35,050 nt of DNA, taken from assembly GCA_016182295.1 (NCBI GenBank), contig JACOXP010000011.1, forward strand, positions 1-35,050, written 5' to 3'. This stretch comes from Candidatus Harrisonbacteria bacterium (lineage in GTDB: Bacteria > Patescibacteriota > Minisyncoccia > UBA6257 > WO2-44-18). This document shows positions 2,804-24,560 of this stretch, piece after piece. Positions within the stretch are counted from its first letter, which is position 1. Each line of letters starts with the position of its first letter. Under the pieces are notes generated by a model. It was not told the DNA's origin and searched no databases. It saw only the letters and a program-made list of their open reading frames with translations. Made by a program: the position numbers and the translations under genes.

Positions 2804-2856
2804 TCCCTGTCCTTACTCTACTACAATTATTTCCATGACCCAAAAGGCCAGATACG

Positions 2857-3022
2857 ATAATTCTAAATTTTGAAAATAAAAATGCCTCGCAGGATTACTC
2901 CTGCGAGGCACATGAATTGTGTCCAACCGTCCAACGGTCTAGGACTCGCACACGACGAGAAAACGATCGCCCTCACCCTACTCAAACCCGTCCCAATCGA
3001 GGCTCAAGTACCGCCCGCCGCC
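2857..3022 (-). repeat. Variable-region block, copy 1 (DGR-like VR, anchor and hairpin)
   Basis: 166 nt aligned without gaps to 23190-23355. In coding direction: GGCGGC (3017-3022), then a variable stretch 2966-3016 with 15 differences from copy 2, then 27 identical nt 2939-2965 ending in a shared TAG, then a non-coding tail with about four differences and a 12-bp hairpin. Changes are at codon positions 1 and 2 except one. This matches the VR / IMH / hairpin order of diversity-generating retroelement targets. Confidence 0.8.
2883..2910 (-). terminator. 12-bp GTAA-loop hairpin (terminator and/or DGR hairpin)
   Basis: TGCCTCGCAGGA and its perfect complement enclose a 4-nt loop that reads GTAA (a GNRA tetraloop) on the minus strand, followed by TTTTTATTTT. 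It works on paper as a terminator. It also sits where DGR targets carry a required hairpin downstream of the variable region. An identical copy is at 23216-23243. Confidence 0.8.
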
Positions 3023-3211
3023 TGGGGCGGTGACGGCTTTGTGGCCGCAAACCCGCCGGAACTCTTCACGGTTCACTCCCTGCAGATTTGCGCAAAGCAA
3101 ATCCGACAACAGACCGGACTCCAGCAGGTCCTGCAACTGTTTAGCAGGCGTCTGCTTTTGCAGGATCAGGTTCAGCACCTGATTCCCTTGTGCCAAGGTT
3201 GCGTCTTTCAT
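2978..3211 (-). CDS. Short variable C-terminus protein (DGR-type target candidate)
   Basis: 77 aa from an ATG with an AAGGGAG ribosome site 5 nt upstream. The N-terminal part (QLQDLLESGLLSDLLCANL, NREEFRRVCG) is a helical module that I recall from candidate-phylum hypothetical proteins but cannot assign. The last 13 codons fall in the variable block shared with 23272-23865. Reading ends at TAG 2978-2980. Beyond it the frame stays open through FLVVCES to a second TAG at 2939-2941, exactly where the paralogue ends; the paralogue has TGG (Trp) at the first position. So the gene is either truncated by 12 residues, read through, or carries a stop produced by diversification. It lacks the long central domain of the paralogue. 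The promoter candidate is at 3286-3314. Confidence 0.7.
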   Translation of the reverse strand: MKDATLAQGNQVLNLILQKQTPAKQLQDLLESGLLSDLLCANLQGVNREEFRRVCGHKAVTAPGGGRYLSLDWDGFE

Positions 3212-22306: not shown

Positions 22307-22319
22307 TATCTAAACTATG

Positions 22320-22378
22320 CCAGGAAGTAGAAACTCGAGCAATTCCTTACGCAAACAACCCGAGTTTCTACTTTCTGG
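22320..22378. repeat. 18-bp inverted repeat with 23-nt loop
   Basis: CCAGGAAGTAGAAACTCG (22320-22337) and CGAGTTTCTACTTTCTGG (22361-22378) pair at 17 of 18 positions. There is no T run on either side, so it is not an obvious terminator. It sits upstream of murE, just after the terminator at 22401-22435 on the minus strand. Confidence 0.6.
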
Positions 22379-22400
22379 TATGACAAATGACGGTGGCAAT

Positions 22401-22435
22401 AAAAAACCCCCGGGCACATTGAAGTGCCTCGGGGG
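22401..22435 (-). terminator. Strong rho-independent terminator
   Basis: On the minus strand CCCCCGAGGCAC and GTGCCCGGGGG form a stem with a single bulge around TTCAAT, followed by TTTTTT. It ends transcripts coming from the gene at 22646 and the structured region before murE. Confidence 0.9.
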
Positions 22436-22630
22436 ATGCGACTGATATTTTAGCCAAGTGACCCGTCGCCGATCACCGGCGTACCTCTGTCTTAACTCCC
22501 GTTCGAGGCCGAGGATCGCCTTCAGGTGGGAGCCCGACTGTTATTCATCCCTATAACCCGTCGGCGTTATCCATAGGGATGCCTAGCTGTTCAGTCTTGC
22601 TAAAGAGCCCGCTAGGCGGCTTTTAGCATG
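22401..22630 (-). ncRNA. Candidate structured RNA upstream of the murE operon
   Basis: About 230 non-coding nt between the basic-protein gene and the terminator. On the minus strand several helices are perfect or nearly so: GCTAAAAGCC/GGGCT...TTTAGC (22600-22630), an alternative GCCTAGC/GCTAGGC pairing, GACTG/CAGTC enclosing CATCCCTAT/ATAGGGATG, CTCCC/GGGAG, and CGCCG/CGGCG. A CGACGGGT motif occurs twice. Mutually exclusive helices at the 5' end and the terminator at the 3' end look riboswitch- or sRNA-like. I could not match it to tmRNA, RNase P, SRP or a named riboswitch. Confidence 0.5.
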
Positions 22631-22645
22631 ATGATCAATGTACAA

Positions 22646-23062
22646 CTACCAAGAGATTGTGATTTCGGACACAAACCGCCTTGTGTCAATTTTGCGTTTC
22701 TTTTCGTATTCTTCCCATCCTTCAATGTCATGTCTGCCAGGCAATGTTTCGCCAAGGGGCATGTCATAAATTGCGCACATCTTGAGGCCAACCTTAAAAC
22801 CTTCTTTTTCAAGCTCTTGAAAAAGAATGGTGGCAGTATCCTGAGATAATTCGCCAGCGCCTAATCGTACGGCATCAATACGGACTGTTCTTCGTCCTTC
22901 TTGGGAAGCTCTTTCCACTTCATACGAAATCTTTCTCTTAATTGGCGCGACTTCACGACTAAGTTCTTTTACTAAAGAAGCTCGTCTTTTGTTTTTCGCG
23001 TTTTCATTTTTCGCAGTAGCTTTCTTGGCTTGGTCACGAAACTTCTTGGCCTTATTCGTCAT
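22646..23062 (-). CDS. Basic protein of unknown function
   Basis: 138 aa. The Lys/Arg-rich N-terminal half (MTNKAKKFRDQAKKATAKNE, AKNKRRASLVKEL) suggests nucleic-acid binding; the second half is mixed alpha/beta (RTVRIDAVRLGAGELSQDTA, TILFQELEKEGFKVG, RRFVSEITISW). I recognise no family. Expression signals are unusually strong: GGAGG 5 nt before the start and a consensus TTGACA-17-TATAAT promoter at 23090-23118 whose -35 overlaps a duplicated ruvA stop codon. Confidence 0.75.
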   Translation of the reverse strand: MTNKAKKFRDQAKKATAKNENAKNKRRASLVKELSREVAPIKRKISYEVERASQEGRRTVRIDAVRLGAGELSQDTATILFQELEKEGFKVGLKMCAIYDMPLGETLPGRHDIEGWEEYEKKRKIDTRRFVSEITISW

Positions 23063-23089
23063 AAATCCTCCTAGTCAAAGAACGCCGTA

Positions 23090-23118
23090 ATTATAATACA
23101 AGCATATACCAATGTCAA
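23090..23118 (-). promoter_or_regulatory. Consensus sigma70 promoter
   Basis: Minus strand TTGACA (23113-23118), 17-nt spacer, TATAAT (23090-23095). Both hexamers are perfect. The -35 is part of the 55-bp direct repeat shared with the end of ruvA. Confidence 0.88.
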
Positions 23119-23167
23119 GCTTTAGCTTTTTTAAGAGCCTCTTTCAAACGTTCCTTGAATCCTTCTA
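23113..23167 (-). repeat. Duplicated 3' end of ruvA (direct repeat A)
   Basis: 55 nt, 54 identical to 23977-24031. It encodes the last residues of RuvA (GFKERLKEALKKAKA) and its TGA. Together the two copies flank an 809-bp segment holding the variable-protein gene, as a direct-repeat pair left by insertion or tandem duplication would. Confidence 0.9.
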
Positions 23168-23189
23168 ATTCTGTGTCGTCATTTTTATA

Positions 23190-23355
23190 ATAATTCTAAC
23201 TTTTGAAAATAAAAATGCCTCGCAGGATTACTCCTGCGAGGCATATGAATTGTGTCCAACCGTCTAACAGTCTAGGACTCGCACACGACGAGAAAACGAC
23301 AGTCCCCATGCCAGTCAAACCCGCACCAATAGAGGCTCGAGTCCCACTCGCCGCC
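23190..23355 (-). repeat. Variable-region block, copy 2 (DGR-like VR, anchor and hairpin)
   Basis: Gap-free partner of 2857-3022. Variable stretch 23299-23349, identical anchor 23272-23298, then the tail with hairpin 23216-23243. In this copy the second small hairpin after the stop keeps its stem by a U-G pair where copy 1 has C-G. Confidence 0.8.
23216..23243 (-). terminator. 12-bp GTAA-loop hairpin, second copy
   Basis: Identical to 2883-2910, followed on the minus strand by TTTTTATTTT. It lies 28 nt beyond the stop codon of the variable-protein gene. Confidence 0.8.
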
Positions 23356-23865
23356 AACGAGCCAGGCGCAAGGAACGCCACCCCAGAAGCCAAGAAGTAC
23401 GATGGGGTACTTTCTCAGCTCACCGGGGTTGGCCGCTATGAAAGCGCGAAATTCCGGCTGGGTGGCAGGGCGTTCCCCGGCTTTCTTAAATTCGGAGATG
23501 GCGTCCTCGGAGCTAATCCAACGATTGAAATGGCGAAGCTTCATGTTGAGCTCGACCCTGTCGCCTCGCTTGTCACTCGGGAAATGCTTCTCGTTGATGT
23601 CATCGTTCTTCCGGTCATACTTCCCGGCGGAGATCATCTCTGCCCGGGATTTGGAGTAATCCACGACTACCTTGAAGAGGTTGCCGACGACTTTCTTTCC
23701 GTCCATCATCAGAGCCCCGATCTTCTTTCGAAGCTCGGGATCGGTCTCGAGGCGGCGAAGATCCTCATCGGACCCGCCTGCATCCGAAACCGCATTGGAG
23801 AGGGCCTTGAAGACCCTCGCGCACACATCGAACGCCGAAACGAACCGACTCTTTTTCTGAGCCAT
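23272..23865 (-). CDS. Variable C-terminus protein (DGR-type target candidate)
   Basis: 197 aa. A start with GGAGG 7 nt upstream is well supported. The N-terminal half is helical (FDVCARVFKALSNAVSDAGG, RKKIGALMMDGKKVVGNLFK). Then VVDYSKSRAEMISAGKYDRK, NDDINEKHFP, VELNMKLRHFNRWISSEDAI and ERPATQPEFRAFIAANPGEL lead into KYPIVLLG, a module I recall as common and multicopy in candidate-phylum genomes. The C-terminus, rich in Trp, Gly, Asp and Cys (GGEWDSSLYWCGFDWHGDCR, FLVVCES), resembles the end of a C-type-lectin-fold DGR target. Its last 27 codons are the DGR-like block shared with 2978-3211. The gene is bracketed by 55-bp direct repeats of the ruvA end. The ligand is unknown. Confidence 0.8.
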   Translation of the reverse strand: MAQKKSRFVSAFDVCARVFKALSNAVSDAGGSDEDLRRLETDPELRKKIGALMMDGKKVVGNLFKVVVDYSKSRAEMISAGKYDRKNDDINEKHFPSDKRGDRVELNMKLRHFNRWISSEDAISEFKKAGERPATQPEFRAFIAANPGELRKYPIVLLGFWGGVPCAWLVGGEWDSSLYWCGFDWHGDCRFLVVCES

Positions 23866-23976: not shown

Positions 23977-24031
23977 TGTCAGGCTTTAGCTTTTTTAAGA
24001 GCCTCTTTCAAACGTTCCTTGAATCCTTCTA
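23977..24031 (-). repeat. 3' end of ruvA (direct repeat B)
   Basis: The copy belonging to intact ruvA. The single mismatch to repeat A turns the promoter-like TTGACA of A into CTGACA; with TAGGAT 18 nt downstream this could still drive the variable-protein gene. Confidence 0.9.
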
Positions 24032-24560
24032 TTTTTGGATCAATTCTAGAAATGGCGTTTTTGGCTTGCTGTTTGGTGTAACCGAGCGAAACCAAAGTTT
24101 CTTCAAGTTCCAAATCCGATTCCATTAAGTTGAGAGTGGTTTTGGGGGACGAACCGGAGGTCAGCTTACCCTTAAGATCAATGACTACTCGCTCGGCCGT
24201 TTTCCTCCCCACGCCTCCGGCCCTGGTCAGCAAGTCCACCTTCCCTTCATTAATAGCGACAACCAACTGATCTATTGGAGCGACATTGAGAATAGCCATC
24301 GCCGTGCGGGGCCCGATGCCGCTGACCGTGTTCAATCTTTCAAAAAGATACAGCTCTCCTTCAGTCATGAAACCATAAAGCTCAAACGGCTCGTTTTCCC
24401 TATTATAGAGCGAACAGAAAAGTTTGATATTGGAGCCGATTTGCGCTAAACTTTGGGCGGCTCGCTGGGACAACAATACCTTAAAACCGATCCCCGCCGA
24501 CTCCAAAACAATAAAACCCTCTTTTTTGCCCGCTAATTTGCCAGAAAGCGAATAAATCAT
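23979..24560 (-). CDS. ruvA: Holliday junction complex subunit RuvA
   Basis: 193 aa, normal length. MIYSLSGKLAGKKEGFIVLE starts the OB-fold domain; YGFMTEGELYLFERLNTVSG and GIGPRTAMAILN plus GGVGRKTAERVVIDLKGKL are the two helix-hairpin-helix motifs that hold the junction; the C-terminal domain III (LEETLVSLGYTKQQAKNAIS) binds RuvB, encoded at 33362. TATAAT 8 nt ahead of the ATG suggests a leaderless transcript, divergent from uvrB. Its last 55 nt are duplicated downstream. Confidence 0.96.
   Translation of the reverse strand: MIYSLSGKLAGKKEGFIVLESAGIGFKVLLSQRAAQSLAQIGSNIKLFCSLYNRENEPFELYGFMTEGELYLFERLNTVSGIGPRTAMAILNVAPIDQLVVAINEGKVDLLTRAGGVGRKTAERVVIDLKGKLTSGSSPKTTLNLMESDLELEETLVSLGYTKQQAKNAISRIDPKIEGFKERLKEALKKAKA

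Follow-up and report, generated by a model that had tools for sequence, protein, structure and literature searches.

Diversity-generating retroelements (DGRs) are abundant in Patescibacteria, where Roux et al. (2021, PMC8144416) reported targets without recognised domains; in nanoarchaea, Paul et al. (2015, PMC4372165) described fragmentary ones. DGR variable proteins usually adopt the C-type lectin fold (PMC6328139, PMC5006420). The DNA considered here is a stretch of 35,050 nucleotides from a Candidatus Harrisonbacteria bacterium (GCA_016182295.1, contig JACOXP010000011.1), termed the window, to which all coordinates refer unless a contig is named. It carries two similar blocks, one at a locus designated A and the other at a gene designated B, which are very probably the variable regions (VRs) of DGR targets whose cassettes have since been deleted, with B frozen intact and A broken. 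The kind of system is already known; what is new is its fossil state and the deletion scars.

Relatives of this genome resemble the clade 2 DGRs of Patescibacteria (CPR; PMC8144416) in reverse transcriptase (RT), Avd, template repeat (TR) and adenine-specific change, and also in having domainless targets and more than one DGR per genome. This is in contrast to the assembly under study, which is without RT, Avd and TR and retains targets and RT remnants only. The nanoarchaeal DGRs (PMC4372165) are alike in the presence of several DGRs and fragments, homologous VRs and a reduced genome; their targets differ, and loss is documented here by synteny and RT scars. The DGR of phage BPP-1 (Guo et al. 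2011, PMC3240598) likewise has its VR at the 3' end of the target and a hairpin downstream, although the hairpin in the window resembles an intrinsic terminator and lies beyond the TTGGAC-like repeat.

The two blocks, 2857-3022 and 23190-23355, both on the minus strand, align without gaps over 166 nt with 19 differences, of which 15 fall inside the 51 coding nucleotides 2966-3016, none in the next 27 coding nucleotides and four in the 82 nt of non-coding flank. Realignment bears out the sequence-only reading, which had counted 15 nonsynonymous changes in 51 nt, 14 of them at codon positions 1 or 2, followed by 27 identical coding nucleotides and a flank with some four differences. The codon positions of the changes are 2,1,1,2,1,1,2,3,2,1,2,2,2,1,2, and no change is synonymous; in a simple substitution simulation, zero synonymous codons together with at most one third-position change had P = 0.0065. 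The Fisher p for the variable 51 nt is 5.6e-6 against the remaining block and 1.7e-4 against the non-coding flank only. The non-A bases at the 15 sites (G13 T6 C4) occur in the same proportions as the bases that replace template A in relatives (G 124, T 54, C 40 over the 13 TR/VR pairs tallied by base). A DNA search of the own assembly found no TR for A and B, nor did a search of 244 genomes from the order, and because of this the 15 sites are no more than consistent with A-specificity. With relatives' TRs in place of an own template, A stands at 8 of the 15 changed sites and at 10 of the 36 unchanged ones (p = 0.08), which is suggestive only of a coincidence between changed sites and template adenines. 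Among the 15 changes, three or four (CGG/TGG, TTG/TCG, GAC/GAG, TGG/TAG) resemble ordinary mutation or decay. The 3' flank shared by A and B falls outside the TR/VR homology and requires a separate duplication or recombination.

The family of B is present in 16 of the 61 genomes searched, the own genome counted, and in several of them, G004 (C6, C4), G055 and G020, an RT lies within about 1-3 kb of a B-family target. Between target and RT, relatives have a near-copy of the target 3' end in which differences are nearly confined to adenines: template A accounts for 25/26 TR/VR mismatches in G004, 17/17 in both G003 and G042, 13/13 in G009, and 237 of 259 when 14 TR/VR pairs are pooled. The small gene between TR and RT is Avd by its matches to NF033474 (1.6e-14) and PF22296, and the RTs contain LGNLTSQ, the SQ form of motif 4 being typical of DGR RTs. 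The loci of relatives are ordinary, complete DGRs, and the B family is among their target families. Genes of the target family also occur with no RT detected in G001, G002, G006, G007, G011 and G028, which with this genome makes 7 of the 16 target-bearing genomes RT-less. Stranded targets may be common in the order, and they are missed because DGR surveys need an RT adjoining the target.

Gene B (23272..23865, minus strand) encodes an intact variable protein of 197 aa, whose 44-48% identical relatives adjoin TR, avd and RT. The part of its variable region common to A (23272..23355, minus strand) aligns with the TRs of relatives, and the VR of the family reaches farther upstream than this shared part. 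The common 3' flank follows (23190..23271, minus strand) and includes a hairpin terminator with arms at 23208-23251. Searches of Pfam, NCBIfam and PHROGs with B gave zero matches, and a PDB sequence profile search yielded no convincing match. In the predicted model of B examined with Foldseek, a helical N-terminus precedes a C-terminal C-type-lectin-like domain; B is without 5+2 residues of the family's domain, and its likeness to C-type lectins is similar to, but weaker than, that of its relative L087. The model of L087 has a pLDDT of 85.6, and its C-terminal ~140 residues match C-type lectins; the Foldseek matches listed are C-type lectin domains (probability up to 0.99, E 0.015), and VIA-align gives Z up to 8.4 against C-type lectins. 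All ten targets aligned together were too diverse for the collection scan, which worked with a four-sequence alignment. On predicted models, the variable domain has the C-type lectin fold that is usual, not universal, for such proteins. The family also includes targets paired in cis with a TR and an RT, and this homology supports B as a member of a DGR target family. We also note a 61-nt direct repeat of 95% identity, 23113-23173 (minus strand) and 23977-24037, in which the 3' end of ruvA flanks B on both sides; the duplication is a scar of insertion, duplication or replacement.

Repeats of CTT(T)GG type occur in the 60 nt past target stop codons with a mean of 1.7, and at least two are found at 12 of 25 targets, 0 of 14 TR flanks and 1.6% of shuffles, numbers that are optimistic as the motif was picked post hoc. 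The flanks of A and B (2857-2938, 23190-23271) carry GTTGGAC-type repeats after the stop. Such TTGGAC/CTTTGG-type repeats stand ~8 nt apart between target stop codon and terminator, also in the L047-L097 flanks, and none is seen at TR flanks. They are a candidate target-recognition element.

The sequence-only reading had placed the blocks at the ends of two genes, and this stands for B only. At locus A, the reading frame (2978..3211, minus strand; 77 aa, start 3211) is stopped by a TAG at 2980-2978, a TGG to TAG change that is one of the 15 and lies within the variable region, 12 codons ahead of the shared stop; the sequence-only reading had passed over it. The first 60 aa of A are 82% identical to the target adjoining argS in G005; this homology gives out near 3039, and at 3022 the shared VR block begins. 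The end of the variable region, through the shared stop codon, occupies 2939..3022, and the 3' flank with its hairpin terminator 2857..2938, both on the minus strand. Locus A is not a working gene; in it, a deletion has joined the beginning of a G005-type target to the end of a variable region. Between its terminator and argS lies a scar of an RT C-terminus (2811..2857, minus strand), which reads SYL, a one-base frameshift and GLLGHGNNCSRVR. It matches the conserved RT C-terminus SYLGLLxHGN, and G005 has an RT at the equivalent place. The match is the best to this motif in the six frames of the window and was reached by 0 of 12 shuffled windows.

Comparison of gene order indicates where the cassettes stood. 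In G005 the order is pdd-target-TR-avd-RT-argS, and in the window pdd-trpR-A-RT scar-argS. In G003, uvrB-ruvA-target-TR-avd runs into a contig break, and another contig opens with RT-murE; the two contigs presumably join. The window has uvrB-ruvA-B-(138-aa gene)-murE at B, with neither TR, avd nor RT. The interval from B to murE (22307..23189, minus strand), which corresponds to the TR-avd-RT place of G003, holds no DGR part, and no remnant of avd, RT or TR between B and murE was above chance. A 138-aa gene of unknown family occupies this place (22646-23062). We infer that cassettes are ancestral at the places of both A and B. The simplest account of these gene orders is that several cassettes were deleted in the lineage and their targets stranded.

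Other targets in the genome indicate that the mutagenesis operated here as well. The distant relative G052 supplied the TR reference. Contig C7 starts with a full VR of a second target family, to which the copy on C4 also belongs. Of the 128 sites of the C7 VR aligned with the G052 TR, 23 are changed, and template A underlies 19 of these (hypergeometric p 2e-12); in the VR remnant on C4, 78 sites show 7 changes, 6 of them at template A (p 6e-4). Because these differences concentrate at template A, a DGR acted in this genome. C7 (L101, G000:C7, 1-302) opens inside its target, with an initial 85 nt that match the broken target on C4 exactly; identical bodies with unlike VRs argue for recent mutagenesis. 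C4 carries a truncated, frameshifted target, a VR remnant, an RT C-terminus remnant (1e-5) and then rpe and tkt, the equivalent order in G004 being target-TR-avd-RT-rpe-tkt. The target frame on C10 is open, as is that of B, and the targets of A and C4 are dead. A 136-nt 5' leader of 94% identity is common to targets of different families on C10 (L009, 2660-2795) and C4 (L074, 4576-4711), and the target genes look modular, with common leaders, common 3' flanks and unlike bodies. The start of contig C19 (L117, 1-99) is identical over 99 nt to L009 2133-2231, just downstream of the C10 target, and is a further assembly branch at a DGR target. The adenine-directed mutagenesis proposed from the two blocks is upheld by the changes on C7 and C4, together with the A-specific TR/VR pairs of relatives and the lectin-like fold.

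The genome is a MAG of 91% completeness in 19 contigs, and the search of all contigs for the RT and template that had been expected elsewhere in the genome found no RT, avd or TR. Avd gave 0 matches in the own genome and matches in 35 of the 61 genomes. The RT traces in the genome are the C-terminal remnants on C4 and in the window, and no RT remnant was found near C10 or in the target regions of the RT-less relatives G001 and G007. The assembled genome gives no support for a complete DGR, and because RT, avd and TR are all missing from it, the system is read as mainly decayed. An RT could lie in the unassembled part, given the 91% completeness of the MAG and a contig, C7, that begins within a DGR target; we infer that this part, too, is without one. 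If present there, RT and TR in the missing ~9% could still rewrite B, C7 and C10 in trans. Such activity is doubtful, though it is the best of the alternatives. Contigs break at DGR targets, as where C7 starts inside a target that shares 85 identical nt with that of C4, the C4 and C7 VRs differ mostly at template A despite gene bodies identical over 85 nt, and the frames of B and C10 are open; against this, no contig carries RT, avd or TR, the three cassette places of relatives are empty or hold RT remnants only, and A has both a stop and a deletion. The sequence-only reading had also favoured an RT acting in trans, which the contigs do not bear out; the cassettes of relatives are local to both places, and an RT remnant lies at A. 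An active trans-acting DGR is kept as a rival and is less favoured than decay.

The broken targets A and C4 have a further feature in common, in that the deletion endpoint lies inside the VR and the 3' end of the VR and the terminator are spared. DGRs may have been lost from this lineage through failed mutagenic retrohoming, with B, C10 and C7 surviving as a frozen repertoire. Truncated cDNAs anchored at the 3' end would then have been joined upstream at the wrong place. This is an unlikely reading and, with two cases behind it, no more than a lead. An assembly artefact, in which two target genes were merged at a repeat into a chimeric A, is improbable: the assembly graph does branch at target genes in this MAG, but A differs from B along the flank too, has a stop and the RT scar beside argS, and in both scar and N-terminus agrees with the syntenic locus of G005. 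Ordinary paralogues under diversifying selection or flank gene conversion, with no retroelement, could produce a nonsynonymous excess alone, and the flank similarity suggests recombination between copies, but this is very improbable given that relatives pair the same family with A-specific TRs, avd and RT, that the C7 and C4 VRs are template-A-specific and that RT remnants lie at syntenic places. Plain diversifying selection is rejected on the template-A pattern in the same genome.

The reading preferred here, of deleted cassettes and stranded targets, would have the following course. A DGR-type RT, together with Avd, would in an ancestor have reverse-transcribed a template-repeat RNA with errors at adenines, and the mutated cDNA would have taken the place of the targets' 3' coding end. 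The result would be amino-acid changes on a C-type-lectin-like domain, with the last codons of the VR and the 3' flank constant; A and B probably once used one template. Later, the cassettes at both places would have been deleted. B would have been left as a frozen, intact variant, and A would have lost its middle by a deletion ending in the VR, gained a stop and kept the RT scar beside argS. The family and its architecture, the A-specificity in relatives, the A-specific VR copies elsewhere in the own genome and the absence of a cassette from both sites are observed.

It was from VR sequence alone that a DGR with vanished cassettes was suspected, and synteny with relatives locates the loss. 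The finding gives the poorly annotated DGRs of Patescibacteria a target family with a predicted C-type-lectin-like domain, and it offers a way to ask if hypervariable proteins keep their use after diversification stops.
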